Source: Apteryx mantelli | Lineage: Eukaryota; Chordata; Aves; Apterygiformes; Apterygidae | Assembly (NCBI RefSeq): GCF_036417845.1 | Contig: NC_089978.1 | Coordinates: 136,456,288 to 136,520,287 of the forward strand | DNA length: 64,000 nucleotides | Reading direction: 5' to 3' | Shown: in pieces, positions 967-50,336 of the stretch | Numbering within the stretch: the stretch's first letter is position 1 | Layout: every line of letters begins with the position of its first letter | Notes under the pieces: model-generated | Told to the model about the DNA's origin: nothing | What the model saw: only the letters and a program-made list of their open reading frames with translations | Database searches by the model: none | Position numbers and translations under genes: made by a program

Positions 967-1146
967 CTTGAGAAAGCTAAAGTCAGCTGGTTGATTAAAC
1001 CACATGATAGGATATCTTCTGCATTCTACGGGCAGAGGATCAATGATAGGTATTGGAAGTGACATCACTCCTGGTACAGAGCAGTCAATGTTCTCATCAA
1101 CTTCATAGGGATAACCCCCATTTTGGGAGGAGAACATACCATGCAC
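967..1146 (-). pseudogene. A2ML1: A2ML1-like exon 15 (intact, just before the bait region)
   Basis: 180 nt (60 codons) between ttctgcag and gtaggt. It reads VHGMFSSQNGGYPYEVDENI, then PIPIIDPLPVECRRYPIMW and ADFSFLK, matching A2ML1 VYGMFPFWYGHYPYQVAEYD, FPQPLIDPMPQ..RSIIW and DLFSFFR. This is the last exon recognised before the left window edge. Confidence 0.9.
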
Positions 1147-2419
1147 CTGCAGAATCACACACAAGGGTCAAGAAAACTGAACAAAAGGCTCACACTAGAC
1201 GCAAGACATGATAGACTGCCTCTCAACCATCACTCTACAAATTCAGCTTTACATTCTAAAGTCTTTCAAACACCAGCACCCCATCATTTACTGCCACCTC
1301 AAAACCTGAATGGGTCATTCTTTAATCAAGATCAGCAGTTTTTAAAGGGCAGAATTTTAGTGTCTTCTAATCACATTTCAGTAGATTTGCCAAAGGGATC
1401 AAAGTCTGTGGAAATCTAGAGTTTTTGCCTCTTGTCCCCAGTAAAAATTTTTTAAACTACTGACTAAAATACTGAGGTCTCTAAGATACAAAGTATCTTT
1501 TAATTCTATAAAATTTGATTAAGAAGTCAGCAGTTATAAAGAAAAGAGAGACTAGACTTCATATCTGCCACTGAAGAGGAGTATGCTGTGCAAGATCAGC
1601 AGTGATCTGCTCTGTATGGCTGCTACATGGCCAGTCAGTCAGTAGATGAGTATTGTTTAATAGAGAGCAAACTGTTCTCAGCCAGTCAGAATACACACTG
1701 CTTCTTGCCCTAGCTAGAAGTACAGAGACAGAGAAAACAGATTATAAGGGTAAGGAAACAGGATACTTGGACAGGGGAGGTTACAATGAAGTAGAAAGGT
1801 GTAGACATGTAAGATACAAATCCCAAAGAAGTCAAGCTGTCTTAGTTTTTGCTAGTTTTGGAACAGGTTGGTTTAAAAATAAGCCTTTTTAGAAGTCTGT
1901 TTAAAATTATAACAGACATATGCTGAATTCTAAATAATCTTTTAGAATACAGTCAAGTAGTTAAAATTAAAAATGAATAAAGCCCTACATATTTCCTGCA
2001 GTGTTTTGAAGATCAAACTACTAAGCAAGTAGAAGTCATTAGCAAAACTCCAGAAAACAGTTTACAAAGGTGTAGAGCCAGTTTCTGACAAGAACAGTCT
2101 GTTCATGTCACCGCAGAATATTTCCTTCTTTTCTCAGTTTATTAACTGCTTCAAAGTAGTGACTAGCTTATTCAAACTGAAAGATGCTTTGGGGACTGCA
2201 AAAGCAGGAAAGCTGCTTTTCCCCTCCACATCTAGAAAAAGGAACTAGTGGTGAGGAGGTAAGCTCAATGATTTCTGAAACACTGAGGAACACAGTGACC
2301 AGAAAAAGAAAATAAATCAGTTAATTATTTTTTCAGAGATAAATCTTGCTTTGTTTAAATTGAATCCATGTAAATGTCAAACGTGTTTAGACAAGCTTTT
2401 ACTTTTTTTTTTTTTTTTT

Positions 2420-2814
2420 GAAAGACTGAGAGAGCTGGGCCTGTTTAGCCTGGAGAAGAGAAGGCTGAGAGGAGATCTTATTAACATGTACAAGTATCTG
2501 AAGGGAGGGTGTCAAGAGGATGGAGCCAGACTCTTTTCAGTGGTGCCCAGCGACAGGACGCGAGGCAACGGGCACAAACTGAAACACAGACACTTCCATC
2601 TGAACATGAGGAAAAACTTCTTCACTGTGAGGGTGACAGAGCACTGGAACAGGTTGCCCAGAGAGGCTGTGGAGCCTCCTTCTCTGGAGATTTTCAAAAC
2701 CCGCCTGGATGCGATCCTATGCAACATGCTCTAGGTGACCCTGCTTGAGCAGGGGGGTTGGACTAGATGATCTCCTGAGGTCCCTTCCAACCTCAACCAT
2801 TCTGTGATTCTGTG
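2420..2814 (+). mobile_element. CR1 LINE 3' fragment in A2ML1-like intron 14
   Basis: 5'-truncated copy of the CR1 ORF2 C-terminus ([35 protein letters not shown]) followed by the short 3'UTR and the terminal ATTCTGTGATTCTGTG. It is inserted opposite to the host gene. It is directly preceded by 17 Ts at 2403-2419. Its close similarity to the copies at 19.5 and 54.2 kb points to a fairly recent insertion. Confidence 0.95.
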
Positions 2815-3361
2815 TAATGCAAAACACCTAAGGTAGCTTTATTTAATGACAAATTGTAAGTGCTGAGGGATTTGTGCATTAACTGAATTCTAGCCTCCAT
2901 TAAGCTGTACTGGAATGCATTGAGAAACAAAAACTGACACTTACCTTGTTATTTTCTCATCATGACAAAGTGATAAAAGTGAAGAATCTAAACAAAATAT
3001 TAACCTAACAGGGTTGATGAAATGTGCACAGCCGTAACACGTCTGAATAGCAAAAATAGTACAAAATGCAATGTAAACTATATTTATTCAACGTATACTG
3101 CTTACTAGCCCAAAAGAATATGAAATAGTTTTAAAAAAGGCTTCTTATTTGTTCATTTCAATATATTCTAAGGAATGATTTACAGCACTTCAAATTGCAT
3201 CAGTTCATCTCAGAGGCATTGCAGTTCCAACCCTGTCTCTTTTCCCAGCCCAGACACCTGATGTTCATTAATTAGCTCAGCTCCCTCTACAGCTCCATGC
3301 AGTTTTTCTATCTTTTCTCCCTATCCTGCTGTCTCACCACCACTCACACCCAGCCACTCAC

Positions 3362-3510
3362 ACTGCTGTTGGAGAGTTCATTTCTGGCCTTGGGAGCAGC
3401 ATGGGCTGATCCACAGCATGCACAGCACAGAGTGAGTGCGGAGCTGCCTTCATGTGGAAATTCACTGTTGTCCCTGGCAGATCTTGCCGTTGGGAGCAAC
3501 TCAGGGTGAC
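3362..3510 (-). pseudogene. A2ML1: A2ML1-like exon 14, frameshifted
   Basis: 149 nt between gctgtag and gtgagt. It reads VTLSCSQRQDLPGTTVNF, then HMKAAPHSLCAVHAVDQ and PMLLPRPE, matching VSLGFSPSQQLPGAEVEL, QLQAAPGSLCALRAVDES and VLLLRPD. The end ELSNSSV (family ELSNRSV) is in another frame. The length is not a multiple of three although both neighbouring phases are 0, confirming an indel near RPE. Confidence 0.85.
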
Positions 3511-3716
3511 CTACAGCAGCAGATTCCAACAGGGAAAAAGACAGTGGCCTGAGAGCAAACAGATGGAAAAAAAAAGAATGCATTAGAAAGAAAAAACAGT
3601 CAGAGGAAAGGTAATGGCCTGGCTGTAGTTCCTCCAGTGCTTCAGCTGAGCTCTCTGTGCTATGCCAGTAATAAAATGTCTGTCCCATTCTTTCCTCTCC
3701 TTTCTGCACCTCTTAC

Positions 3717-3841
3717 CCCCCAACCTGCTTCAGTGTAAGCCTCACCTCCTCTATCAAGGAACATGGTGTAAACCATCAGTGAGGGGTTGGGAGCAGAGTG
3801 GGAGGAGCAGGTGAGATGGCTGGAGAAAGAGCCCTTCAGAC
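3717..3841 (-). pseudogene. A2ML1: A2ML1-like exon 13, open, diverged 3' end
   Basis: 125 nt between ttcccag and gtaaga. It reads GLKGSFSSHLTCSSHSAPNP then SLMVYTMFLDRGGEA, against GLKASFSLSLTFTSRLAPDP and SLVIYAIFPSGGVV. The last third (TEAGWG) no longer resembles the family and is about seven residues short. The frame is preserved into exon 14. Confidence 0.75.
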
Positions 3842-4026
3842 CTGGGAAAAGGGAAGAGTAAGTGAGTGTCTATCAGTGAGATCTAACTCTGTTCCCTCCT
3901 AAAGACAGAGTCTTTCCACTACCCACTGAGACATGCCTTCCTCAGTTATCTCCTCTAATTTTGAGTTGTTCCCTGCATTCAAAGGGCCCAGCCTACCTTA
4001 CTTTGGAAGTGAATTTTAGGACTTAC

Positions 4027-4090
4027 CAATGTCCTTCTTGATATCAATGTGGTTTTGACCATCCACAATGAACCTGCCATCCCCCACCAC
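4027..4090 (-). pseudogene. A2ML1: A2ML1-like exon 12 (intact)
   Basis: 64 nt between ttttctag and gtaagt. It reads VVGDGRFIVDGQNHIDIKKD, matching A2ML1 LIGKGSLVMEGQKHLNSKKK. Phase 0 to 1, consistent with both neighbours. Confidence 0.85.
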
Positions 4091-4507
4091 CTAGAAAAGT
4101 AGCACAAGAAGTGTTCAGTTGAAACCTCCCCTCTCAAACTCTTCCACATCCCTTCACACTCTACTAGTGCTGGACAAGATTCAGTGAAATCAGGCAACAA
4201 GAACTGAAGCAGCAGGGAAAAACACCTGTGGATATTTACAAAATTAGTTCAAAGGTCACAACAAGTTACTATGGGTAGGAGAAAAGCAGAATCAATAGTG
4301 GGAGAGGGGTAGAGGGATGCTGCAAAACCAGAGAACAGTTGACTATATCTAATGATTGTCTTCAGGGCTGTCTGGGTTAAGCACAGACCATGAAAGCTAC
4401 AATCAAGACCAGATTTACTACTGCCCTCAACAGCTTGACTTCAGCCGCCACTACCTCACTCAACACACACACACATACTCCACCCACTATGCCCACAGGG
4501 TGCTCAC

Positions 4508-4735
4508 AAAAAAGGAGAAGAGGATTGCTTCATCCCTTCCCAGGTCCACAGGGTCAGTACTGCAATCCACCCAGACTTCCTGCTCCTGGGCGCAGGCCAG
4601 CACCCCATGCAGTCCCCTGACTTTGAGGTAACTTTTGGTGCTGCTGTAGTATGGCTGCAGATGTAAATAGCCATTCCAATAAAACAGGCTGTTTGCCCCC
4701 AACTTATACACAGGTTCCTCATTTACAAGCTTCCC
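4508..4735 (-). pseudogene. A2ML1: A2ML1-like exon 11 (intact)
   Basis: 228 nt (76 codons) between cctttcag and gtgagc, phase 0 on both sides. It reads GKLVNEEPVYKLGAN, then YWNGYLHLQPYYSSTKSYLK and EVWVDCSTDPVD. This matches A2ML1 EGKFQMEDLVYN, YYQNAYLHLRPFYSTTRSFL and EVLVDYYIDPAD. No lesion is visible. Confidence 0.9.
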
Positions 4736-5294
4736 CTGAAAGGGAAATAAAGGCAGAAACAACTATTTGCACAGAGTGTCACAGTTTCAGATGTGATATG
4801 CATGCATTCAACCCTTTGCAGAGTGTTATCAGTGGTTCATGCACAATACAGAACCTCTGATGCTGCAGAGGTTGCCTGTCAGTTTAAGCAGAAGTCCTGT
4901 GCTGAGGTGTACCTAGATCAGTTATACCCAAAAGATTCCAGAGCTCTACAGGACCCTAGTGCAATATAGATTGCAGATCAGGTAGGCTATGTTCCCAAAG
5001 AAAAGTCTGACAGTAAGGGTGAGACTCATCTCAGCTACCGCTACCTTTAATCTTATCTGAGTTAATCCTTTAGTTTCCCTTTATAACCAGTGGAGAGAGA
5101 CACACACAGAGCACTGCTAGGGTGAGATAACTCATGCCTGAAGACAACCCTCTAGAACTAGTCAGATGCACAATATTGAGCGGCTGCTTATCTTTTACCA
5201 TTAACTCTAAAGGGAACCCAAAGTAACTAGGCCAGATATAAGTTCATACATTACACACTTCTAAAATATGTTAGATCTCCCCTCACTGAGTATC

Positions 5295-5425
5295 TAACAT
5301 TAATTATATAATTATGTTATAATTTTATGTTATAATATTATAATATTATATATAAGCAACAAATAAATATCTGCAATATCCTTTATTTATTTATTTATAT
5401 TTTATTTATTTATTTATATTTTCTT
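5295..5425. repeat. AT-rich and (TTTA)n low-complexity run
   Basis: Alternating ATTATAA tracts followed by TTTATTTATTTA blocks, lying in intron 10 of the A2ML1-like locus. Confidence 0.9.
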
Positions 5426-6139
5426 TACAATTTCTTCCACAGCCAGTGGTATTAGCCATTTTCAGAGGCACCTGTTAGAGACCAGCAAGACCTGAGAAGT
5501 CCTACATTCTGCATTCTGCTGCATGCCAATATGAAAATTCACCAGGCTGGGTTACAAGATTCATAAAGCATGGATATCAACAGCTAGACGAATACCAACA
5601 AGTGGAAGTCTTCAGCTAAGCCATTTCTTTCTAAATATTCACAGCTTGAGAAACAGACCGATAGATTTGTCTGGAGTCCAAGACCAGCCTTTTCAACTAC
5701 GCAGAGGCAATTCTTATCTGATAAAACTTCAGCAGTGCCTCTGCACATGGATGAAACTAAATCACTCAGCTGGACTGAAGAAATCCAGAAAAAAATCTGT
5801 GATTTGGGTCTGAGTTTACCCTTGGTCACTCACACAACAAAACACAGATCTCACTATGCAGTGGTAAAGACACACCAAGAGAAAAAACAAACAAACAAAC
5901 AAACAGATTTGTCTCAAACAATTTTTTTAACTGCAGGGGCTACGAAAATACAAGTCACAGAAACCACACTGTGCCAGACTTCCCTCCCCATAACTCTTTC
6001 AGGGTACACAGAGAAGAAAACTGCACTAGGTCCATTCTAAGTAGGATAGTCTTCAGATCTTCCTAAAAAGAAAATGGAGCCTATGAGGTATAGCAAAAGG
6101 CATCCTGACTTTAAACAGTGACAGAAGACAAGAGCTCAC

Positions 6140-6307
6140 CTTCAGAGAAACCTCACTACTGTTCCAGACAGCTGTATCCAGAGTGAACATAGCTATGCCA
6201 GTACTATTGGTGATGAGAATATGTTTGGACTGTGTGTTCTCAGTCTCTGTGGGTAAGGTAATTGTTTATTTCTTCATTATCATCCCATCTTGGCCTTTGG
6301 CTCTGAT
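6140..6307 (-). pseudogene. A2ML1: A2ML1-like exon 10 with in-frame stop
   Basis: 168 nt (56 codons), acceptor cctacag, donor gtgagc, phase 0 at both ends. It reads IRAKGQDGMIMKK, stop, TITLPTETENTQSK, HILITNSTGIAMFTLDTAV, WNSSEVSLK, aligned without gaps to IRVRGHDDSFLKN..TLVTDNNGLAPFTLETSGWNGTDVSLE. The TAA is at 6266-6268. Confidence 0.85.
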
Positions 6308-6590
6308 CTGTAGGAAAAAGCATAGGAGGATCATGCACAACTTTCACAAAGAAAACCTACTCTTAAGGTGAGCCTGAGAGGAGACAGCCAGACTCAGAGC
6401 TGGGCAATTTGTCCTTCCTGCCCACATGAAAACTGGGACAAGGCTCCAAACAGGCAGAAAGCATCTCCCACGAGACAAAGGAGACTTTTCAAGTCTATTG
6501 CAGTCTCTCACATCCTTGTCCCTTCATAGCAGCATTTAACAAGAACTCTGGACTTCAGAATATACCAAAGGTCCTGCCAAATATGCTTAT

Positions 6591-6700
6591 CTTCCCACTG
6601 TAAGGGTACCCTGAATGATAGTAATAGCCTGAATCTTCAAAGCTTATTGAACCAGCTTGCTCAGACATAAGGGCAATGTGGGTAGCATTTACTTCCACAC
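6591..6700 (-). pseudogene. A2ML1: A2ML1-like exon 9, open, donor mutated GT to AT
   Basis: 110 nt. It reads GVEVNATHIALMSEQAGSI then SFEDSGYYYHSGYPYSGK, closely matching GVEANATQ..MGSMTFEDTSNFYHPNFPFSGK. The exon end AAG is followed by ATAAGC where GTAAGC is expected (6589-6590). Without the donor, read-through meets a stop within a few dozen bases. Confidence 0.85.
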
Positions 6701-7066
6701 CTTCAAAAAAGAGACAAGATACACAGTGAGGCAGAGAACCAACAGAAGAGCATGCCTTGTTCTGATCCCATTATGTCATCTGATCTAGCCAGAAATAAGA
6801 AGGTGCTCATGACCTCTTATATGTAACCTCTGCCTTGAGAGGTATGTATGTGTGTGCAGTGGGAGGTTGGGAGAGCATCAGGACAATGTGTGAACGTCCC
6901 TCACTAAGAAGAAAAATCAAAGTGGACTGCCCTGTGGCAAGAAAAAGACATTACAAAAGAAAACTCCTCATCCAGCAAAACCACTCACAGCTCCAACAGA
7001 ACATCTCCCCCCCAGACACTCTTCATTCACATACATATTCGGTACAGCATAGGCCTGAGCACTTAC

Positions 7067-7191
7067 CTGTGCCAGCTTCCACCAGTGTGACTACCACATC
7101 TAGGCTACAGAGATACTGATAGTCGTTGAGGTTGAAGAGCGATGTGTCTGGAGAAACAACCAGTCTTATTAGTACAGAAAGCAGATCTGAG
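7067..7191 (-). pseudogene. A2ML1: A2ML1-like exon 8, frameshifted
   Basis: It starts in phase 0 and reaches NKTGCFS (A2ML1 DKTGCFS), then the match continues in a different frame as PDTSLFNLNDYQY and VVVTLVEAGT (VDMATFDLIGY, NIVATVVEEGT). The length of 125 nt does not satisfy the 0-to-1 phase required by its neighbours, which independently supports an indel. The acceptor choice at ctctcag is the best visible one. The donor is gtaagt. Confidence 0.75.
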
Positions 7192-7507
7192 CTGAGAGAT
7201 GAGCTCATACCCAGCAATCAGGAGGAAAAGTGACAGCTGGGCTGTGGCCCAGTTAGAACACAGCACAGTCAGGACCAGGACGTGTGGTCTCTAAAGTACT
7301 GCAGGAAGTGGGTCCACTTCTCAGAAGGAGCCATTTTTCCCCCCATAGGCCTCAGGATAGTGCTGCATACCAGGGCATTTCTGAAAGTGTCAAGTACTCC
7401 TGTTAGTTTCTGTATCTCAGCATTTTGTCCTGCCCTGCCCTGACATCTGTTTCATTTCTCTCAGCTTCTTCTACCTCTTCATTAAGTGTTCCCTGTCCCC
7501 TTCTCAC

Positions 7508-7592
7508 CTGGCCTGTGAACCCTATCACATCTATGTACCAAGCACTGGTTTTCTGACACACGGACTCCTGTACAGGTCTCCCATATACATAG
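7508..7592 (-). pseudogene. A2ML1: A2ML1-like exon 7, open but shortened
   Basis: 85 nt between ctaccag and gtgaga. It reads YVYGRPVQESVCQKTSAWY then GFTGQ against A2ML1 YTYGKP..VQVSVCQKANTYWY..LSGQ. About a dozen residues of the human segment are missing in two places, yet the frame stays open. Confidence 0.8.
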
Positions 7593-8040
7593 CTGGTAGA
7601 GAAGGAAGAACAAAAATAAGACACGTGAAAATAAGGCAATAGACTAAAAAGACCGTGGTATGAGTGCCATGCATGCAAGTTGATATTTCACTTTCATGGC
7701 TCTGCCAACACCCTTCACTTCTGTCCCACAGTTGCCCTGTTAGCCCGGCCCTGGGGTCCCCACATAGCTAATTGCCCTGCAATACAACACATCATTTTTT
7801 ACCATGCACTCTAAATAAGGAAGGCACTTACCATTGTTGGGAAGCTGCATAATAGACCAGTGTTCACAAGGAGCTGAGCACCAAAGAATGTTCTACTAGC
7901 CTCCTAAAACCTCCACAGGAATTCAGACTCCCTCAAACCACAACCTAAACCACCTCCCCTTTAAAGAGAGAAACATTTGCTGATAAACTCTCCCGCTCCT
8001 ACGACACTCCAAGCATAGCCAAGGCTTATTCAAAACATAC

Positions 8041-8125
8041 CTGCCACAGATCCTCAGTGAAAAAGTTGGATCCAGTATGAAGACCTGCCTGGGCTCAGTA
8101 ACAGTTACTTCAAATGTAGGCAACA
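8041..8125 (-). pseudogene. A2ML1: A2ML1-like exon 6 (85 nt, intact)
   Basis: 85 nt between tgtccag and gtatgt. It reads (V)LPTFEVTVTEPRQVF then DPTFSLRICG, matching VLPKFKVEVVEPKEL and ESFLVKICC. It is open and in phase with exon 7. Confidence 0.85.
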
Positions 8126-8356
8126 CTGGACAAAGTGGCATGATAGGTGAAGTTACACACAGCAGTAATTTGGTGACTATCACCCCAGTACCAACATATG
8201 TCTGTGTGTGGAAAAGGATGCAGTAAGGGCTGGAGACATCTCCTGAGTCTGGCATTAGCTCACAGGATCTGCACCAGCAAGGAAAAGACTCTCTCATGCT
8301 GGGATTTCTGTCAGATGGCCACGAAGAAGCAAGTTTCCTCTGTGTCCTGCACCTAC

Positions 8357-8554
8357 ACCAATTTTCCTTCCATGCTGTTTTCAGCCACGCTGAAGGTGCT
8401 GTAGGTATCCCTGCTGACCATGCTGATGATATATACTCTCAGGGCTAGTTCAGCTGCTAGCTGGAAGGACAGCTGGGCAATGCTTTGCTCCAGTTTCACA
8501 TTAAGCCACTGGCCAGTCCGGTTACCATCACGACCCTGCTTCCACAGACAGATT
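8357..8554 (-). pseudogene. A2ML1: A2ML1-like exon 5, frameshifted, splice sites doubtful
   Basis: It begins in one frame as NLSVE (A2ML1 YSMVE), then shifts to QGRDGNRTGQWLNVKLEQ and IAQLSFQLAAE, matching DPNSNRIAQWLEVVPEQ and VDLSFQLAPE. The end TYSTFSVAEN should continue to EEY and a donor, but the sequence runs to a TAG without a phase-correct GT. The base pair just before NLSVE is TG where the acceptor AG is expected. Both ends are therefore approximate. Confidence 0.75.
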
Positions 8555-9999
8555 CAGTGACCATCCTTCCAGTCCTACCTCACTCCCCATTCACTCCCTC
8601 TGTCCCACTCCTAGAGAGAGGAGGGCTGGGGGTGCTTTACAGGCTGGTTCTCTACAATGCCATATACTTGACCAAAGCTGCAGTACCTGTCTCTTACAGC
8701 AGAACTGTCCCAGAGGCATCAGTGTGTCCAGGGCTGATTTCAGCCTTCCCACTGGAGGGGAGAGCTGGCTTCCATCACATTTCCAGCCTTTCTCAGACCT
8801 GGGACTAGAAGAACGAAAGCTGCTAGTGCCTATTACATGGGGCACCTGCATTCAGTTCTGTGTCACTGCCTTAGCCTTTCCCAAGGATCAGAGAGGACTG
8901 AATTCTGCTTCATTCCTCTCCAAACACAAGGGCCAATGTTCCTCTCTGCAGAAAAAAAGATTTGGGACATTAGCAACCCCACCACAGTGATTCCTCTGGG
9001 CAGCAGGATGGAGGAGAACTGGAGAAGCAGTATCCCTGCAGGCTCGTCTGCTGCATGGAAGATGGTTTCTTTTCCCTGGCCCATTCTGCTCCAAGACAGC
9101 AGAAGGATGAGACCTCTGGGTGACCTTCCAGAAGACTACTGCTTTACACTTCAAAAGATCCTAGTTTCCAGCAGACAGCTTGCCATCCTGGCTAGGTGAG
9201 CCACTGCCCACCGCGGACATGCAAAACAGCTCTGTCTGATCTTCTAATCTGGAGTAGGAATAATGGAAAATAAAGGCATCTCATAGTTACTCACCCTCAG
9301 CTCCACCAGCAGGTACTAGAAATAAAAAAACAGGTTTCTCATTAGCTCCTTGAAACCCTTTTATGTAATACAGTGTGGCATAAAGACCCAGATGCAGTTA
9401 CTGTAACAGTCAAACCCTCACAGTCATGCTGATTCAGCTATCTCAGGAGGATGAAAAACATCCAGTTAAGAACCATTTTCTCAAAATTCCCCACCATCAT
9501 CCTTTATCTTCCACCAGCCTCACATCCACAGGGCCTGTCTGGAAAGGTTAGTTCAAACTGCTTTCTTCCATTTTGCTGGCAGGCACTCCATGTTATTTTA
9601 TGCAAATAGATCTCAAACTGTTTCCTAGGAACTCACTTGATACCCTGGAGTGGTTCTTAGGGTCAAAAAGGAAGGAGGTGTGCTGGAGTGCAGTAGCATA
9701 AGGCCAGAGGCTGGCAGTTCTTGCAAGCCATCCACTTCTGGTTTAGAATTGGTTCTGAGTTGGGTTATATCCAGGGGTAAGTTTACAGAAGAGATCTGAG
9801 TCTTTACTCAGGTTTGATTATGAATTCCTGCAGCCACTCAAGAATGCTGGATTTGTGGTTCCTAAAGAATAAAATGCCCTGCCCAAGATCAAAAGCAGAG
9901 AGCTGCATCCCTAACATGCCATCTTATATAAACCCAATTTAAGTCTCCTGTTATTCCTCATTATTATTCTCCCCACCCTTTCTCCTTTACATTCCTCAC

Positions 10000-10052
10000 C
10001 TTATCATTCAACAGGACAAAATTGCTGTTCAGAGTGACAGTTCAAAACTGTA
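10000..10052 (-). pseudogene. A2ML1: A2ML1-like exon 4 (53 nt) with in-frame stop
   Basis: Exactly 53 nt, with acceptor ccattgcag and donor gtgagg. It reads (V)QF-stop-TVTLNSNFVLLNDK against A2ML1 VYFRIVTMDSNFVPVNDK. The stop TGA at 10042-10044 replaces the Arg codon, fitting a CGA to TGA (CpG decay) change. Confidence 0.85.
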
Positions 10053-11760
10053 CTGCAATGGAAGAAAGCAAATAAGATATATGTGAGCATAACCATCAAG
10101 CACAGAGTCAGCCCTTTCCACCCTCACCCAGAACGTACCCCAAAATCGAGGTGTCTTTTCATGACATTCCCTTAGGCATCGTGCCTTATTTCTCCTAAGA
10201 TCTGAGGGCATAACATGTTCCTGAGGATACAAATTGGGAAAAAATGTAAAGAAAGGAGAATATGAATCTAAGAGAGACTCTGAGGGAGAAAGGGAGGTGC
10301 TGAAATGTCCCACTCTGTTGCATGTGATCCTTAAAAAATGAACTTGAAAGAGCTGAGAGATTGGATTGCAGCATTGCAAGAAAGGTGTTAAACCAGCGCT
10401 ATGAAGACTGGTGTATTGCCCAGGACCACGTAAGGAGAACCACTTCCTTTGAACAGGCTCTAACTCAGTTACAACCCATGCAACCTCTCAAAAAGTTAGC
10501 TGGAAAAAGATTGTTGCAAATAAATCAAACTTTGAATAAATCATATATAACGGCCAATACAAGGTATCAAAATAAGGTTTGCACACACTGCCAAAGATGC
10601 AGCCCATAACTATTTGTGTAGTCGTCTTCACAAAATCATGTACGGATATTGATTAGCTACCATAGGTCTGTACACATACATGTGCATGTGCTTGCAAATA
10701 CCTGCATGTACGTAACAAGGCAGAAAAGTCCACAGGTACATATGGACAAACTGTAATTAGGCACAGTTCTGTACACAAAATTAGTCCTGATAAGAGGAAA
10801 TTTTAAGTTGACTGGGCACTGTTAACTCTAACAGGCCTTGCTCAAATCTTCCAAAGGTCCTTCTTGTGCAAGCAGAAAGGAACCATTTGAAATATCTTTT
10901 ACTTCAGGTTATCTATCTTTCAAAGCCATGGTAATGATTCAACAAATAATGATAACAGTTCTTATTGCAAAATGAATAAAAGACATAAGGTCTTGAAAAA
11001 AGATGCTAATCAAATATTTATTTCAATAATAGAATCATGCCACCTTCAGGGGAGAGAATGTGGGTGTGTAGTTTTCCAATAATTATAATTAGAGTAAACT
11101 GCACGCATTAAGTGTAGCTGGAGTGTTTACTGCTGAAGAGGTAATTTTGGATAGGCCAGACATTATTGAAGTACTGGACAGTATTAAAAAAAAAAAAAAG
11201 ATACACCAGCTACAAATAGAAAAGAAGAGTTTTCTAGACTTGATGTAACAAGGAAAATATTCTTTGACAAAAATGATTTAGGGAGCTTGAATACAACTAA
11301 CAAATATAAGATGAAGGTCTTCTGATAGGTGACAGACAGTTGCCAGGTAGGTTCCCAGCATTTCTAAAAAAGGTGAGAGTGCATCATGGCATTTGAAATC
11401 TAGGGCAACAAAGGTAGTGAGTTCATTAAGGTTCTTGACCATTCCTTGATGGAATTTGTGTGGATACCCAGGATGATGTTTCCTGGAGCCCACTTAAGAT
11501 CAGTGCTTATAAACCTAACAAGTCTGCATCGGAGAAACTGTAGAGTGGGTTGGTACAATTTTTTAGAAACAAGCCTTCAGTAGCAGTAAAGTATGAACTG
11601 GCAATCAAGCGTGATTTCTTCACTAAAATCCAGGGCCAAGGCAATTATTATAGCAGCTGGGCAATCCAAATCACAAGTCTCTATATTGATGTAGTGAGGA
11701 TTTGCACACCATCAGGAACACTCTCTCAACCCTCCTCACAGCTTACCTTTATAGGCTTAC

Positions 11761-11911
11761 CTTGTGGTCCTGGCATGTAAATGGGTATCAGTTTGCACAA
11801 AAGTGCTGCTGTCAATGTTCTGGACAAAGACCTTCTTCTCAGCTATTGTGTCCTTGCCTACAGAGAGCTGGATGATCACAGCTTCCTTATTGCCTCTTGC
11901 AGTGGAGGGAT
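11761..11911 (-). pseudogene. A2ML1: A2ML1-like exon 3 with two compensating frameshifts
   Basis: 151 nt between ccacag and gtaagc. The start in phase 0 reads IPPLQ (family VPPPA). If read on, that frame stops soon after. The main body is in another frame: KEAVIIQLSV, then AEKKVFVQNIDSSTFVQTD, matching EEVATIRVSG and KKVLIQ..GTFVQTD of A2ML1. The end returns to the first frame as PGPQ|V (family PGQQ|V). Total length keeps the expected phase (0 to 1), so two indels offset each other in length while leaving a stop-containing or aberrant reading. Confidence 0.8.
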
Positions 11912-13923
11912 CTGTGGAGTACAGGAAAATACCCCAGGGTAACTCCGGAGCAGTTCTCAAGGGGGGAATTGGGCATACCAGTTAAGCACATGTGATCTGA
12001 CTAGTAGCTAGTTTGCAGAGGAAACAAGGGGCATAGAACTCTACTTACTGCTAAACAAGTTGTTTCATAGTTGATATGGAAGAGACAGAAGTTCTTAGAA
12101 CTGCACATGATGTTTATAGGATTTATACAAATTTATACTGGTATCTGTAGTACAAGGACACTGGAAGCATCAAGAAGCAGATAATGGTAGAAGCCAGATC
12201 TGTATACCATGCTGGAATAGGTTGAATATTATTTATTACCAAAATTAGAACCCCAATTTGGACTCTGGCAAGTCATAACAATTAGAAGCAAGTGGATCTG
12301 ACCATTTTCTGGGCAGAATGAGAAAAGAACTGCCAGCCTCCAGATGCTTCCCTAAATGTCAAAATGAAGAAACACCTGATTTTGAAGATCCTTCATGCTG
12401 TGCTGTGAGGTCCTTGGTAATGCTTGGAGCCACATTGTCCAAGAGGGAAGTAAAACAGAAAAACATAAACATAGGGAATTCTTGAGCGTTAGTAATAAAC
12501 ACAATACTCAAGCAGTTGCCTTTCACACTGTCAGCAAATGCCAGAGTCCCTAAGCCTTCAGCATGTGTTACTGATCGGGAGATCAGAGAATGAACAACTG
12601 TGAGACGTAAGATCTCAGTAAAATTTCAGATCTGAATAAGAATACTGCACAGAGCTGTGTTCTGAACTACTGCCAAGCACTGCTGTTACCCACTCTCGTT
12701 TTGATGGGTGTTCTGCTATCGTTTCCATTTCTTTATGCATGTTTAAGATCAGTTGGGTGTGACTGGCCAGGTACTCACTTTCCATTGCTGTAATCCAACA
12801 CTTCTCATCACCTGGATTAAGAGATTCTTTATAGGACAAGAAGGAAGGGTCCATGGGCATATAGCTGAATCGCTGACAACACAACCTATGCACAGAAGGG
12901 AATTTTGGCTACCACCTCAGAAAAAGGTTGGGTGCTTCATTAGCCTTACTATGAACTACTATGAATTACTCCATATACAACATACGAGCAATATAGCTGT
13001 TAATATAACTATTAATAATAGAACCGTTAATAATAATATATTAAACCTTAGTATGAACGACTCTGTGTAATAGAGTCTGATCATCAAATCACATACAAAG
13101 TAAGTGAGTATATACATACACACTGTCACCATCAAAACAAGGATCCCACAGCTCTCATCCACAACCTTCTGGAAGGGAAGTCAGAGCTTATAATTCTGCT
13201 CATTATAGTATTGATTACAAGGCTTTATGCAGAACTGTAAGTGGGCTTCTGATACTGCTCATAATTATTCTGCAGAGCTGCTATTCCTCCAAAAGGCAAT
13301 ACAACAGTCTACTGGCATGTATGTTTGTGAAGAGTACCTTTCAAATGGGAGCTGAGAGTCAGCACCAAAGCATTTCAAGCAGTCATCTGCAGGCAGGCTG
13401 GTACAACTCTCCTTATGCAAACCCATTTGGCTAAGGAACATGCACTGTTCTGTAGCTAAGCAGAGAGAAGTCTCCTTATCTCGTGGACAGTCCCTGCCTG
13501 CCTCAGTATCTGTCTCTAAGGCTGATACATCAGACTGCAGGAGCAGCACATTTCTGTGTGCACAGCTTTCCCATTTGCCAGCTGCACCCTCTTGCACTCC
13601 ACCTCTGGTCCCCTCATCACAGCAACAGAGAAGTGAAATTGACAAGGAAGCAGAATTTACCAGCTTTCTTCTGCTCATGTGCCATTTTTGGCAGAACAGA
13701 TGACTGCAGTGGAGATGGCTGAAAATCCTTCTCTGGGACACATTTGAAGTGCACCCTACTAGACATTCAGGCCAGCAAAGATGTGAACAAGCTGAGCAGG
13801 GTAGCAAGGACACTTTAAAAACTCCCCCAAGGAACAAAGCCCTGACCATGAAGACCTGATACTGTAAGCTCGTGTCTGCCCCCACCACTGAAGTAGCTCT
13901 AGCTTCAACTTTGACACCCTCAC

Positions 13924-14107
13924 CAGGAAGTTGAAGCACTGGAACAGTTTTCTGTTCCAGAGAAAGCCATCTAGTAGTGTGTGGTTCTTGCCTTCAGTCT
14001 CCAATATAAGGGTGAGTAGCAGGGGCTCCTTTGAATCCCCTAGGCCCACACAGACCTTCTCTGTAGAAGGATAGCTCAGCCATGCCAGCAGCACCACCCC
14101 ATAGGTC
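13924..14107 (-). pseudogene. A2ML1: A2ML1-like exon 2 (first macroglobulin domain)
   Basis: 184 nt, bounded by a cctag acceptor and a gtgagg donor. The frame is open from TYGVVLLAWLSYPSTEKV through LILETEG to FQCFNFL, matching the A2ML1 segment that starts NYLVTLPARLNFPS and ends HCISFLV. It starts with one base completing a split codon and ends in phase 0. It looks intact, but neighbouring exons 1 and 3 are damaged. Confidence 0.85.
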
Positions 14108-14232
14108 CTAGGAAGACAAAAGAAAACTGGGAGAGAGGTTTAAAAACATCTAGATTTTAAAAAGATAAGCATCTGTGTTCAAAAAGGAGAAGGAAATTCA
14201 GAAGGGAACTGAGTTCTCTGATTAACTGGTAG

Positions 14233-15065
14233 ACTGATACCAATGTGATTGCAGCAGCCTGTCAGGGCCCTGAGGCACTAATAGGCCTTATTGGCCCTAC
14301 CCAGCCTCCTCTGGGGCTTACCCCCACCCCTGCCCATGGCCCAGGACTCCATTTCAGCAGAGCTCCGGACTGTCAGTCCCAGCCCCAGCGACGCCATAGC
14401 AATGCCAGTCTCCAGCTCTGCCACAGCTATGGCCCTGCCTGGCCACAGGCCGCACTGATCTTGACCTCGTCCCGAAGGCTGCTGCCTGGCCCAGTCTCTG
14501 CCCAGCCCTGTCACCATGGCCCTACCCGGCCATTGCGGGGCTGTGTCTGATCCCAGTTACCCTCACCAGGCCTGATCCAGACTCAACCTGCAGGCTGACT
14601 GCCCAGCCTGGCTTCAGCCCTGCACCACCACCATGGACCTGCCTGGCTATCATTGGGCTGTGTCTGGTCCTGGTTGCCCTCACCAGGCCTGATCTGAACC
14701 CCAACCCATGTTGTCCAGTTTGACCTCAGTCCTCCCTCATCAGCACAGACTTACTTGGTGATCACAGGGTTATGACTCACCATGTTCACCAACACTGGAC
14801 CCAATTTTGATTTGCTGACTTGCATACCTGGCTTGACCTGGAGTCTGCCTCATCACCATGAACTTGTCTAGTGATCTGGACTCCTGGTTGAATCTGACTA
14901 CCATCTCTTGGTCTGCCTTGCTTGCCTCACTCAGGTACTGTGAGCCTGGGCCTGGGCCAGCAATGCCCCTACCCTGCCAGCCATGTTATCAGGTTCAGCT
15001 TCCGGCTCCTCTCCCTTGGGGAGCAGCTGGCCTTCACTACTCCCTGATGCAGGCTGCCTGGCAGT
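14233..15065. repeat. Degenerate GC-rich tandem repeat (about 117-bp period) in A2ML1-like intron 1
   Basis: A GC-rich block in an otherwise AT-rich window. The motif GGGCTGTGTCTG occurs at 14538 and again at 14655, and CACCAGGCCTGATC at 14564 and 14681, both 117 bp apart. Looser copies built on 'accatg...ctgcctgg' extend on either side. The open frames here on both strands come from the repeat composition and are not genes. Confidence 0.65.
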
Positions 15066-16294
15066 AGGAACACATGGTTTACTACCTCTCCTTTATCTTC
15101 CTGCCTTCACTTCTCAGATGTCAAAGGAACTCAGTGAGGTTCAGAGACTCCAGCCTTAGTATTTCGGAAAGTAGAGAAAGTAGCCCAGAGAACTACAGAG
15201 ACTGAAGCAACAAGTGCCTGCATACCTTCCCTACAGAGGTACACCCAACCTTCCACAAGAGAAACAGGGACTCAAAATACCTCATCTCTCAAAGGAAAGG
15301 GGCCTTGCTGTTGCCTCTGAAGTTCAATTGGAACAGTCCCTTTAGTTGCTCCTGTGACATCAGAGTTGTTTCTCTGGTATCCAATAATGATGCTGCAGAA
15401 GCAAATTTCTCACAGATGTATCACATCTGTATAATCTTTCTGCTTGTGCTACCATCTTTTACCATCACTGGGCCTCTGAGCAATAGGACAGAAAGAGGCA
15501 CATGGGAAGCCATGTGCTAAGACAGGAAGCTTCCTAATATGTCACCTGTCCACTCTCTCTATGGTCCTTGGCCTTCTGCAACTTGGTAACAATTACTAGT
15601 TATCCCTTCAAGAGGAAAATCAGTGCAAAGTGGAACAAGAGGACGAGGCTTTGATAATGAATATTTCTCCTCTATTTCTATTGTATAAAGAACAGGAAAG
15701 AGGGTGAAATTGGAAAAAATGTAGTTTTTTAACCAGTTTCATCAAGAAGTTCTCAGCACAACACTGCTACTGGTTTTCCAAAACCCTTATTGTACCCCTT
15801 CTAAAAGCCATACTAAATTACAGAAGATGGCCAGACTCTCCCTCCCTTAGCCCTTTTTGTCCCACTCTCCATGGGAAAACCTCAGAATTGGTCTTTCACG
15901 TTCCCTTACCGCAGTATAACCACCTCCCTACACCAGCCAGGCACCTGTCCCATCTCCAGCTTCCTCATTCCCTGTCAAGGACAATGCACAGTCACTCAAA
16001 TTCATCTGTTTGCCTCCTTTCTGATTTTATTTCATGTGGCATTCCCTCTGCCTCTGTCTAGTGCCCTCAAACCCTTGGTCCCCAATGATGCCTTCTCCTA
16101 GTCCTATGTCCTCCACAATACCATCTCTTTATCTCTGAAGTCACTAAGGTAAAGTACTAAGAGTGCTTTAGGTCCCCCAGACACCTCATAAGCTACTCCT
16201 CCCTCTCACACACATGCTGTCTTCCTCCCCTTTCCTAAAGGGCTGCAACCAGTTCCACAGTGACTCAAAGGACAGAAACACTTGCTGAGGTTTA

Positions 16295-16342
16295 CTGAAG
16301 AAGCAGGATCAACATGCTGAGAAGAAGCAGCCACATGTCCAT
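16295..16342 (-). pseudogene. A2ML1: A2ML1-like exon 1 (signal peptide)
   Basis: Translates as MDMWLLLLSMLILLLQ, a hydrophobic leader like those starting A2M-family proteins. The second Met-Trp (MWLLLL) is the better match to the family start. The frame meets TAA directly after CAG. The junction reads CAG|TAAACC, which looks like a donor (CAG|GTAAACC type) that lost its G, so both splicing and reading are affected. Exon 2 needs two bases from exon 1 to keep frame. A candidate TATA box lies upstream. The assignment is inferred from the leader and position. Confidence 0.55.
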
Positions 16343-41771: not shown

Positions 41772-42235
41772 TCACTCCACAAGAAGTTTGATCTCATTGG
41801 CTAATAGCTGGTTCATGTTGAATAGAGCCCCCGGGAGCTTGGTGAGCAACTCTCTCTCCGTGGTCTCAGGGTCGCTGTCGACAGAGCTGGAGCTAGCACT
41901 CATATTGTCGACAGCGGCACTAGCTGGAGGGCCCAGCTCCGGCTCGCTAGTCTCGCTTGCCGTGGACACCACAGAGAGCAAGGACATGCGCCGCGTCAAG
42001 CGACCGGGGGTAAGGAGAGAAGCAGCATAGTCTGCTATGATACCAGCTACATCTAGATTACAAGCCTTGTCAAAGGCAATGAAACCTACATTTGCATTGG
42101 CCTCGCAGACGTAGAATGAACCGTCGTCCTTCATCAGTAGGTCAATGCCGCACACGTCCATCCCCAAGATGTTTGACACCTGGACTGCCAATTGCTTGCC
42201 TTGTTCACTCAGTGAGCACATCATACCTACACCAC
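41772..42235 (-). CDS. RIMKLB: RIMKLB last coding exon, residues 233-386 and stop
   Basis: 464 nt from ttttccag to the TGA at 41772-41774. It begins [17 protein letters not shown], carries the metal-binding [12 protein letters not shown] and [14 protein letters not shown] motifs, then the Ser-rich vertebrate tail ([38 protein letters not shown]) and ends NEIKLLVE. The tail is nearly unchanged from human (SLLTPGRL for SLLPSGRL, final E for D), suggesting constraint outside the catalytic fold. Confidence 0.98.
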
Positions 42236-44504
42236 CTGGAAAAAGTGAAAAAAACTCAGTCTATGATCTGGTCACAGGTAACCTCCTTCTTGACAGGCCG
42301 GTGCTTTTTGGTTGGGAAGCTCCAAAGGAATCCAGAGACCTGCAAACATACTGCTGATGACTCAGATATGGACTGACACAGACTACCAATGATCTTAAAG
42401 ATCCAGCAGGATTTCAAAAGATTCTGACCTGCTGAAGGCACTCATTTTATGATGACTTTATGACCTGTTTAAAAAATGGTGCGTGATGACATTTTAGCCA
42501 AGAAAGAAGGACATCATTATACATTATGAACTTGGGATATTAAAAAGATGACCTAACAAATCATAAGAGACAAAAATTTTTTCCTTCTTACTTTAGGACA
42601 GTGGTGTGAAATGATTTTAACTCCCCTATCATTCTGTAAAGTGTACTTGTTTGCCTTTTTAGGCTCAGTCTCCTGTCACAGAAAACTAACGATGTAAATG
42701 GCATAAAAAGCAAGAAAAATGAACAATAAAGGTTGACATAAAATTGCCCTTGTTTCTTCATGTAAGGTAGAGGCTTTGAATACGTATTTCTAAGTTCTCA
42801 AAGAAACCTTCCAGCAAAACTAAACAGAATGTTCCTGATAAGACTGCAGCTCTGGCAGATGTAATTTTAGGGGGCGAGGGGGGGGGTAAGACATTACCAT
42901 CTTCTCATGTACCTCACACCTTGCTGTCAGAGGTTACTGTCTCTACAGCAAGAACACTGGAAAACTTGTGTCTGTACCTCAGCTGCTCCAGTTCACAGTC
43001 CATCATCTAAGTAGTAACCTACCCAGACTTCATCTGTTACAATATCAAAGTTAAAAAAAAAAAAAACATTTAGCAGAGAAATCTTTCAGAATACATTTAC
43101 TCAAAATAAAGAAAGGAATAACAAAAATCTCTCAGGCATTTTGACTAACCAAAATTGTACTACACATGAACACATTTTATCCCATACCTGCTCATGTCTA
43201 GCATAGCTTCAGTTAAATTACCAGCCAGGCAAGCCCAACCCTCCTTCCCTCCTCCTGCCCTCAGAAAACCCTCTCTCCTACACTCAAAGCTATGCAGAAA
43301 CTCAGTTCTGAGCATACTACAATCTATGCAGTAACTTCCTCTTCCTCCCAGACATGGTCTTGGAGAAAAAAGTTGCAGGGAGGAGCCAGAGAGATTGAAG
43401 CCAGCACAGCAGCTGCAATCCAAGAAAGGACTCTTATTTAAGACAGATCGCCTTCAACTGTTTTCTCTCTTAACATTATCATCCACCAAGTGGCTCTCTC
43501 CTTCACCTCCCCAGTCTCTTTTTCTGTCTTCTTTTTTTTAAACAGGATTAAACCAACAATAACATGGCATTGGCATGACGTTGCCACTATCACATCATTT
43601 GCTCCATTTGCATGTTCTTACAGCTTTCCCCTCCCTTTTGTCTGTCCTATAAATCTGCCCACTTTGGGGCAGAGATTACTTCTCATTCCATGTTTACACA
43701 ATACCCCTCTCACTTAAGCCTAACTCTTGTTTTTTTCTCTGCAAACCTCCTACTGTAAGCACAATAAATAAAAAATAAATCTTGCAGCTTATTTCAGTTG
43801 GGTTTGTCAATTCAGTCCCGCTGCGTTCACAAGTTCTGATCAAAACTATAAACAATGCTTTTCCTACCAAGTGAGCAGTTACTCTGCATCCTCCCATCTG
43901 TTGAGCAGCGGAGCATGGTGCCCACCACACGGCCTCCTACTACGATAACACGTACATCCTTGCCATGGGACTCTTTAACGTATTTTTGAAATAAGTAAGG
44001 GGCATCATGACGAATCAAATGGCTCAGGTCTGCCAAATGGTGCTTGTCTCGTGCCAGGAACACAGCTTTGCCTGTATGAAGAAAGAACATTGTGGGATTG
44101 GAAAAAGCTACCAATTTGATCTGCGTTGCTGATTCAGCACAAGTAAAAAACTCTGATCAGTACGCTGCCCATTCTCACAGGCCCCATCTGTAGTTTATAC
44201 CTATTTACACATTCTTCTGGAGAAATCAGTGTTTCACTGCTTCAGTGCTTCTCAGCGTTCAAGTACTGAAAAAGCTGAGGAACCAGTAAGTAATAAAATA
44301 CAAACAAACAAACATGGCTCTTAGATAAAGGAAGTGACCTGTAATTTCAACCTTTTTTAGGAAAGGTTCCTAATGAGAGAAAAATGGAAGAAATACTAAA
44401 AGAGCAGCAGAAATTTAATCGCACAGCTTATTCATCCAAGAAGACTGGGAACCACAGCCTACTACTTTGACACACAAGAACCAATTGCACAAAACTCAAA
44501 ACTC

Positions 44505-44535
<31 letters not shown>

Positions 44536-47500
44536 ACAGCTAAGACCTCGAGAGCTAAGAACTTTTAAGCCACTAGTGTGCCACTGCAAAACTGCTTTAC
44601 TATTTGGAAATGACTGAGAGCTGTTCTTCCCAATACCTGCAACAGCTCACAACTCTAGAATGAGGCTATACAAAGAGACTTCAAAGTATCTGCTATGACA
44701 TAAATTTAGCAAAATATTCCACTAAACACGTAAGTGAATGGAATGTACTTCAACTTTAAAAAAAACCCACTCTTCTAGAAATACTGCCGGACTTTTCTGC
44801 CAGCAAACATCTTGGGGACTTTTTGTGTTTAACCTTAAACCTGTCATTTTCATCCCTCACCAAAGACTTCCTCTCTGCCCTTTTTCAATTTTATTAATAT
44901 TGATGAAAAGGCATTCCTGAAACAGATTCTACCATTCTCCACCTCTTTTCTAGTCTCACACCAACGCATCCCTTTCCTTCATTAGGTACATCTCACAATT
45001 GCTATTCCCTTTTGTTAAGGACTCTTAACAAAAGAAATGTGTCGCATATTAGATTTATGTTTTGCAATAAGCCTGCAACAAATTTCTGTGGCAGAACTTT
45101 CACTAAATTATGCTGCAATGTTAACAGAGCATGAAAAACAATTGGTAAACTGCCTAACTTAACTAAGGGAACAGAAATGCAGCAGCAGCAGCAGAATTAA
45201 GAGAAATAATGTGCCAGGAGAAATTCCAACAAGTGCTCCAAAGTCCAACTTGAACAGGCTCTATTTCGTCAGGATTTAAGGTCTGCAAAACACAAAACAC
45301 TGCTTGAGGAACATAGTGTTTCTCATAACAAACAGAGCATCAGAATGCAGGTTTAAGATCGCAACAGGAAAACAAGAACTTTCATTTGCTCTCTCTCAGA
45401 ACCAACTTTGGCCATCCTACAGGCACTTAATAATCTTACTGTACTCCTAAAATGAGGATGGGAAGAATGATGCCTTGGAGCAGAACTGTTTATTTCTTAG
45501 AGTTATGCAGCACCATGACATCTTGGCAAAAATAAGACTGGAACATTTGCAGCAGCAGCAAACTACACATTAAATTGGCCTAAAACAGCATGGCTTTTTT
45601 ATTCAGCAGGCAACACCTACAACCATGATTGCCCTGTTTTTTTAAATACCATTTGCAAATGGCTGCTCTGTAATTCATTTGAAAAGGTTTCCCCAACTGT
45701 TTTAATGCACAAGGCTATGTATTGTGCATAAATTTCACATGGGATTAAATGGACTCTAAAGCACAACTTGTAAACAGAGATTTGCATGATTTCTGGCTAA
45801 AAAAAGGAGAAGAAACTCAATAACTGAAAAATATTTACTCATTTATCAGATTATCTAATTCAGCTTGCTGCAAAGTCAAACTCCAACCTAACATTGTAGC
45901 TCCACAAGTACTTTAAGAATATTTAAACAGGTATTATTTCCAAAAGAAACAGGCCTGATCTTCCTCTGCCACCATCTTTTGCTCTCACTTTTCCATTACA
46001 TCAGCACGTGGATTTGTGGAAGTAAATGACAATTCAAATAGGAAATTAATCCAAGTTTAAATAACCAGATTAGATTTAGCCAAGATCAGTTCCTGAATCC
46101 ATTTATTACACAGCTCCAGAAACACTTGTACCAGCAGAAGAGAGGGGACAGCAGGGAGTGGGAACAAGCAGACAGAGACAATAAGAAGTGCTCTTTTTAG
46201 GTAACTCTGATTTGTGTGCTCTTGGAACTTCAGTTTAAGGCTCTTTTTACTTAAAGCATTGGTTGAATTGGTTTTAAAGAAAATTAAAACAGGTATAACC
46301 CCCTGCGCAAATAACATCTGAAATTGATTTTAAACCTGGTTTTGTTTAGTAGTTCACTATCTAACAGTAAATCAATTAAGTATTTTACATTCATCACTTA
46401 AATCAAGACTGGCATTAGAAAATTTCATCTGAAGCTGCTGCATTATCACCAACAATGTCAGAGAGTTTTCTGAAAAACTGAGATCCAGTTTGTCTATAAT
46501 TAGGATTCTGATTTAAATAAAATCTCATATATTCTTTGTTAAAGTCAAGTAGAAAGAAAAATCAAATTAAGATGTACTGAACTAAGTTTCTCTCTCTTAT
46601 GCCTTTTTAGAAACATCTCTAAAATCCACATGGGCTCATCTCTACATCTCTAAAGCCAGACCTCCCATTATTCCAGTTCAGATCTCTCCTCACAGAAGTC
46701 ACCAATGTACCATAATTTTGAATCTCTATCCCCCCTGCTTTTGCAAGACTAGGTCCTTTAATTGAGTTACTGGATTCTATTAAAACTGCTTCTCAGTGTT
46801 GCAGCCTATTCAACATTCAGAAGTAAGAGGCTGGTAGAATTTAGACATACAGAAAAGTCCAACACCTAACAGAAGACCTTCTTAACTATTATTCCTTGGC
46901 AACTTAAAATCTTAAGAGTGCTGCTCACAATCACATACTCCTTGCCCTCACCCCTGACCTCACACCCACCTCGGTGACCCCGTGTGTTCTTCACCACCAT
47001 AGGAAACTCCAGCACTTCCGCCTCATCAATCATTTTGGCAAAATTCTCATGACCACCTGGCAAAAAGAAAACCAACAACATTATGTGCCAACAATCTGGT
47101 GTGGCCAAATTGGGGATGTAATTGCCACATATTCCTCCCACCCTTCCAGCTTAGATAATGCAGAAGAAACTAACAGTTAAGAGGAACTTGGGTCATGGAG
47201 CAGGGTCAGACTTTGAAGGTATTTATAATCTGTGGAATACTAATTCTTACTTCCTTAGGAATGGAAGATACAAATTGACAAAGTCCTCCTGACCATGACC
47301 TCAAAAGGTTCAATCCAATTTTCCAAATCTGAATGACCCAATTCTACCATCTTGTTCCAGTTTATCCCTTTTATCAACTCCTACCTTTGCAAATCTCTAG
47401 CAGGAAAATAGCATGAACTTAACCCCGGCCACTGTTCTATCCAAACTACTAACCAGGAAGGCAACATGGAATACTAAAACAAGGTATAATCCAGAAAGTT

Positions 47501-49196: not shown

Positions 49197-50336
49197 CTAC
49201 AGAAGGAAGAGAAAACCATTCCAATCAACTACAAGGTTTTCAGGACATGCAGAGAAATACTGCACTATATGGGTTCACAAGAGAGATACTGGACTTCAAC
49301 GGTGAATGTTAAAAAAAACACATAATTCTCCCTAAAATGCATCTTGTCAGTTGCACTATTTCATACAGGTCACAGTAAGCCACTTAAAACTATAGCTAGG
49401 CAAAGAACACACCCTAGAAAGGCGCACAATCCTGAGCTCCTTCCCCGGGTGAAGCATTAATCTTAGGCTGACGCATTATCCTTTCTATGAGTGTTAGCTG
49501 CACACTACCTTCACTTTGGCTGTAACAATAGCTCAGGAAGCTCCTGCCTCTCACCACTAGTTCTTGCCCACATGCTATAGTTCATATCCTTCCCTTCCCA
49601 GTCGTACTGGTCCTACTGTTTGCAGAATCACATTACATAACATATTGCAGAAATGACTGAGATTAGATATAACCTTTAAAAAGCAGCAGTATTTTTTTTA
49701 AACACAGATCATTTTAACAATCTGATTTATATTAAATAGTAACTACCCAGAAATAATTTTATCAGAACAGCTGGGAAGGCAGCACCCTGTGACACAGAAG
49801 CAGGAATAAGAAGAAAAGCCAGCCTTGCTACCAAGACCAATGTATTACTTAATCATGACCTGCACTTTTACAGCGTATGCTTCTGAAAAAACAGGCATGG
49901 GATGAAAATTCTTAAGTTGTAAAAAGGAGAGTATGATAGGACTGGTTGGGAAGGCATCAAGCTGTAAGAAGACAGTCTGGCAACTGAGGATGGGAATAGA
50001 CCAGAAGTATCTGATATTCACTTTATCTGCCTTATCATGTTCAAAGTAAAACTTCTAACCGCAGTGTAAAATACACAGTTCACACTGCTGTCAGCACCCT
50101 AAGCATTAAAGAGAAGAAAGAAGGTGGGCTGAGAAATCACAGTGCATCTGGATTTCTGTGCCTCTGAAATGCCAGCTCTAACCCTCCAGAGAGACCTAAA
50201 ACTAATTACCTGATCAGCTCTCTTCCAAAGATGTTACTTTTAAATACAGACTTGTATCTACTCAACCCATAAAGACACACAGAGTCAGGCAACGTATTTT
50301 CCTTTTATTTTCATTTCACAGTGCACTTTAATTAAT

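Follow-up and report, generated by a model that had tools for sequence, protein, structure and literature searches.

The 64,000-nucleotide stretch of Apteryx mantelli DNA analyzed here (the window, C1:136456288-136520287, where C1 is contig NC_089978.1 and negative window positions lie on the same contig beyond the left edge) holds exons 1 to 16 of an A2ML1 pseudogene, here called W, which runs on the minus strand from about 16342 past the left edge of the window to C1:136445802 and spans 27 kb. With a probability of about 95%, we consider W to be the A2ML1 orthologue, which lost its function relatively recently and is decaying in place, that is, a unitary pseudogene, a term used when a genome's sole orthologue is lost in its native position. 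The loss is ordinary given the other damaged copies in the surrounding A2M-family cluster, and the more interesting finding is a pattern suggestive of gene conversion in the thioester exon.

Identity and disabling lesions of W

The initial annotation had read this DNA as an A2ML1 pseudogene with its exon skeleton kept, which was borne out by both the alignment and the reading of the lesions. Human A2ML1 (PDB 7q1y), used as the query of a custom-written spliced protein-to-DNA aligner that permits introns, frameshifts, and stops, gave a score of 2559 against the minus strand of W, while four controls (the opposite strand, two stretches that lack a thioester-domain match, and a shuffled protein) scored 231-278. 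When a 15-kb piece was translated in its three minus-strand frames and compared with solved structures, human A2ML1 was the top match in each frame, and exon 12 by itself matched only A2ML1 (E 8.3e-15); a Pfam search of two single exons gave no match at E 0.01. By our own count along W, 16 exons were placed in the window, where fifteen had been proposed. W continues past 967, and 17 more exons (17-33) were recognized on this contig outside the window. The features are as follows.

16296..16342 (-): probable exon 1; MDMWLLLLSMLILLL, a signal-peptide-like frame, with a weak donor GTAAAC; TAA one codon further on
13924..14107 (-): exon 2, open, both splice sites retained
11761..11911 (-): exon 3, two frameshifts, one near the start and one near 11787
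10000..10052 (-): exon 4, premature TGA at ~10042-10044
9295..9315 (-): exon 5, 21 nt, open
8376..8535 (-): exon 6, open; donor GT changed to GC (8374-8375), a doubtful lesion
8041..8125 (-): exon 7, open
7508..7592 (-): exon 8, open; 85 nt against 112-121 in paralogues P2-P4
7067..7173 (-): exon 9, deletion that shifts the frame; expected acceptor lacks AG, an in-frame AG 18 nt upstream
6591..6700 (-): exon 10, open; donor GT changed to AT (6589-6590)
6140..6307 (-): exon 11, premature TAA at ~6266-6268
4508..4735 (-): exon 12, open; the genome-wide search gave no other close copy
4027..4090 (-): exon 13, open, both splice sites; placed by DNA reading, as the human query lacks the letters of this exon
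3746..3841 (-): exon 14, donor and 3' part gone
3362..3510 (-): exon 15, frameshift near 3383
967..1146 (-): exon 16, open
Outside the window (-): exon 17, frameshift
Outside the window (-): exon 18, three frameshifts and one stop
Outside the window (-): exon 19, TAG
Outside the window (-): exon 20, TGA
Outside the window (-): exon 21, one extra base, a frameshift added by reading
Outside the window (-): exon 22, open on DNA reading
Outside the window (-): exon 23, acceptor AG changed to TG; thioester motif GCGEQNM, exon frame open
Outside the window (-): exon 25, TAG
Outside the window (-): exon 28, 3' part missing, a CR1 fragment in its place
Outside the window (-): exon 29, frameshift

Exon 1 is a probable exon proposed from the DNA reading: a signal-peptide filter found no candidate in 6 kb for W, and upstream of exon 2 of P4 and P3 the same filter gave one and three candidates (MW... 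or MKMW...), respectively. Exon 16 runs into the bait region, whose boundary we assume.

Exon-by-exon reading gave 21 lesions over the whole of W, comprising six stops, 10 frameshifts, three splice dinucleotides (one of them doubtful), and two partial exon losses. Nine of them lie in the window (two in exon 3 and one each in exons 4, 6, 9, 10, 11, 14, and 15), where "at least six" had been counted initially and one of the nine is the doubtful donor, and 12 lie in exons 17-33; exons 2, 5, 7, 8, 12, 13, and 16 are the open ones in the window. The aligner itself marked seven stops and 12 frameshifts, from which DNA reading discarded one stop, located in intron sequence ahead of exon 15, and three frameshifts, in exon 8, ahead of exon 9, and within CR1 sequence. 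No reading across the exons of W is open for a full protein.

The idea that W is intact and that its lesions are sequencing or assembly errors draws on the fact that frameshifts are a frequent type of assembly error and that a single assembly was examined, but it deserves almost no credence. Two paralogues within 70 kb of W on the same contig, P4 (32 segments, 1339 residues placed on human A2ML1) and P3 (33 segments, 1332 residues), showed neither stops nor frameshifts when aligned at the same lenient costs, a few short segments being poorly placed; therefore, assembly error is improbable for W, whose lesions also go beyond indels to six stops, splice changes, and two partial exon losses. The first models of P3 and P4, made without an outside reference, contained intron read-through and were superseded by the alignment to human A2ML1.

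Two observations make W the A2ML1 orthologue, as initially named: the tree places it with human A2ML1, and its neighbor is a RimK-family gene. Its identity to human A2ML1 is 51.6% over 1206 aligned residues, compared with 42.5% for P4, 41.8% for P3, 36.7% for P2, and 33.9% for P1, in an alignment that used human A2ML1 as the reference for every row, a bias toward identity with that protein; W aligned directly to P4 and P3 scored 2060 and 2069, against 2559 for human A2ML1. In a seven-row tree built without the thioester exon, W joined human A2ML1 at 99/98, and a clade of W, P3, and P4 was rejected by the approximately unbiased test (p-AU 0.018, the constraint having been picked after the tree was seen). 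The motif GCGEQ, looked for as a mark of A2ML1, is present in exon 23, which also carries the conversion block described below. The neighboring gene is the following.

41775..49224 (-): RimK-family gene, upstream of W and oriented like it, with four open exon-like frames

We take this gene to be RIMKLB rather than RIMKLA, and in the human genome A2ML1 adjoins RIMKLB as well. The initial annotation had called the neighbor an intact RIMKLB; the four open minus-strand frames, two of them with a RimK domain, agree with that, while the other two frames have no Pfam match and the name is our assumption. On the same contig, M6PR (C1:136.266 Mb) separates P1-P4 and W from P5 and its neighbors P6-P8; in the tree, P5 falls with human A2M at 100/99.

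W might instead be a dead duplicate of a functional A2ML1 located elsewhere, since the cluster is full of duplicates and contains other damaged copies. We regard this as very unlikely, given the place of W beside the RimK-family gene and its pairing with human A2ML1. A genome-wide search with a single W exon, exon 12, over 1.5 Gb and 408 contigs returned W itself, then P3 at 39% and one further place at 33%, although a copy may be absent from the assembly. W thus looks, from its sequence, like the sole A2ML1 of this genome, and a dead one.

Age of the loss and evidence to the contrary

The stops and splice changes allow an approximate date. With the transition bias set to 4, the codons of W should gain 122 stops per unit of neutral divergence, and 128 splice bases were counted. 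The nine stop and splice lesions then give d = 0.036 neutral substitutions per site (0.016-0.068), or 0.032 (0.014-0.063) from eight lesions if the doubtful GC donor is dropped, and the 10 frameshifts give d = 0.024, 0.035, and 0.057 at indel rates of 0.12, 0.08, and 0.05 of the substitution rate, with intervals covering 0.011-0.104. The avian neutral rate is near 2e-9 per site per year. We infer that the loss dates back about 0.036 neutral substitutions per site, or ~8-34 million years, a date that rests on few lesions and an assumed mutation model and leaves out lesions in unrecognizable stretches. All 19 cysteines common to the five comparison proteins are kept in W, although positions 257 and 535 lie in unsafe alignment and 889 lies inside the converted block. 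A2ML1 would thus have lost its function, the loss would presumably have become fixed, and the gene would have decayed at its home locus with the exon skeleton kept; living A2M-family neighbors may have made such a loss tolerable.

Besides the alignment bias and the limits of the date given above, several observations weigh against a recent, unitary loss. When 11 rows of the C-terminal half were placed in a tree, W joined human A2ML1 at only 88/96, and the root area and deeper forks were not resolved. The exon 12 search did not list P4's own exon 12 and is, therefore, blind to distant copies. P4 and P3, both intact, have one GC donor each (GCAAGG and GCAAGT) in a better context than that of exon 6 of W, so a GC donor alone is not lethal. 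The whole reading concerns the genomic DNA of one individual. W also alters 40 of the 219 columns that are invariant in the five comparison proteins (18.3%); leaving out each protein in turn, the changed columns amount to 18.3% for P2, 14.8% for human A2M, 13.1% for P3, 7.3% for P4, and 6.3% for human A2ML1, with 22.8% for the damaged P1. Likewise, the path from the node that W shares with P3 and P4 is 0.99 (0.15+0.84) to W, against 0.82 and 0.85 to P3 and P4 and 0.45 to human A2ML1. In view of these altered columns and this longer path, constraint may have weakened before W died, or the loss may be older than the lesion clock says or at the old end of its range. The initial view that the loss is not ancient, therefore, agrees with the lesion counts and the kept cysteines and sits less well with the altered columns and the path. 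The loss may be lineage-specific, as also proposed initially; as for the egg-white ovostatin mentioned there, W groups with A2ML1.

Pattern suggestive of conversion in the thioester exon

At the DNA level, the 28-kb stretch of W and that of P4 match at three places only. Two are CR1 repeats, and the third is a 140-bp block of exon 23 with 95.7% identity to intact P4; against P3, the same block is 92.0% identical, and one further 96-bp stretch matches at 71.9%. The block lies at the following positions.

C1:136452126-136451987 (-; window -4161 to -4300): thioester-exon block of W
C1:136422274-136422135: thioester-exon block of P4
C1:136383091-136382955: thioester-exon block of P3

Across their aligned coding sequence, W and P4 share 55% identity, and 45% at third codon positions. 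In the 46 codons of the block, third-position agreement is 0.96 for W-P4, 0.89 for W-P3, and 0.89 for P4-P3, as opposed to 0.43, 0.41, and 0.48, respectively, in the other exons. A second gene group, in which P5-P8 were covered only in part, behaves in a similar way: third-position agreement in the thioester exon versus other exons is 0.80 versus 0.36 for P5-P7 and 0.87 versus 0.33 for P6-P7, while P5 and P6, recent duplicates, are alike in the exons compared (0.78 in the thioester exon versus 0.84 elsewhere). The remaining 30 of the 36 pairs agree at 0.43-0.65 in the thioester exon, in many cases a little better than in their other exons (0.33-0.43); ordinary conservation, therefore, explains some of the similarity. 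In a permutation test on third positions, the observed run was matched in no more than 20 of 2000 shuffles for six of the 36 pairs (in 0 for each of them), and that run fell inside the thioester exon for five of these six, P5-P6 being the exception. A DNA tree of the block grouped W, P3, and P4 at 93/94 and P5-P8 at 91/89, neither fully supported, and the two groups lie on opposite sides of M6PR.

An exon-restricted gene conversion that homogenized the thioester exon of W with those of P4 and P3 fits these patterns best, and a separate one looks to have acted among P5, P6, and P7; W and its neighbors P4 and P3 would thus have exchanged this exon. Over codons 872-910, W differs from P4 at three codons, and, judged by P3, two of them changed in W and one in P4; the block differences are too few for the direction of exchange, or its order relative to the death of W, to be read. 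That the thioester exon is singled out for repeated, exon-bounded conversion in two gene groups, with the dead A2ML1 perhaps still a partner of a living inhibitor, is a tentative proposal that we hold to be possible rather than probable.

This pattern also bears on whether part of W is still used, either through a short transcript or by donating thioester-exon sequence to its living neighbors. The exon itself is open and its block is nearly identical to that of P4, and seven window exons are open with many splice sites kept; on the other hand, the acceptor of exon 23 is lost, the lesions are spread along the whole of W, and the order of conversion and death cannot be taken from so few differences. 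We, therefore, think such use unlikely and continue to regard W as an A2ML1 decaying in place.

Other copies, CR1 elements, and known systems

Other members of the cluster show marks of damage, taken from the aligner and not checked by eye: four stops and one frameshift in P1 (C1:136316-136345 kb), one stop and three frameshifts in P2 (C1:136350-136375 kb), and one stop and one frameshift in the thioester-domain exons of P6 (C1:136190-136200 kb). P8 (locus L033, C1:136088-136098 kb) is an A2M-family gene on the plus strand that contains, in mid-gene, three thioester-domain exons lying on the minus strand, a strand switch that is either a local inversion or a misassembly.

A CR1 element at window 54286-55461 (minus strand) has an open reverse-transcriptase frame of 391 residues. 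Two CR1 fragments lie inside W, at window ~2420-2814 and, in exon 28, at C1:136449310-136449603, and correspond to neighboring parts, with a slight overlap, of a single CR1 copy beyond P4 (C1:136411152-136411823). CR1-like matches to the exon 28 fragment number seven, and CR1 was active fairly recently because four of these are 95.9-98.6% identical over 242-294 bp. A plain CR1 insertion into exon 28 was rejected: the fragment has no CR1 3' end, as judged by the CR1 structure that we assume, so a deletion is also needed there.

A2ML1 is described as a monomeric protease trap that relies on covalent binding via its thioester (PMC9156758). A bird that lacks A2ML1 and has several A2M-family relatives would be a natural case for learning what A2ML1 alone can do. 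Among the open-access papers that our searches listed, we found no report of A2ML1 loss in birds and none of gene conversion in vertebrate A2M genes; the papers on thioester conversion found there concern invertebrates, as far as their accessible text goes. The conversion pattern, in turn, poses the testable question of whether the exons encoding the reactive bond in vertebrate A2M genes are kept alike by conversion, as in the thioester domain of mosquito TEP1.

W resembles human A2ML1 (PDB 7q1y) in its exon order, in being nearest to it in sequence (51.6%), in the motif GCGEQNM, and in the RimK-family neighbor, and differs from it in its 21 lesions and in having no open frame across the exons. 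Like unitary pseudogenes, it has decayed in place with its introns and many splice sites, and its exon 12, the one exon searched, has no second close copy; nothing in kind sets it apart from them. In mosquito TEP1, conversion is reported to have left tracts in the thioester domain, one of them ~80 bp long, through exchange between clustered members of the family and also between alleles (PMC2576239). To that extent, the pattern among W, P4, and P3 is similar, as it would be conversion in the thioester domain among clustered members of one family, and it differs in that the cluster is a vertebrate A2M cluster, the pattern is confined to one exon, and one of the partners is now dead.

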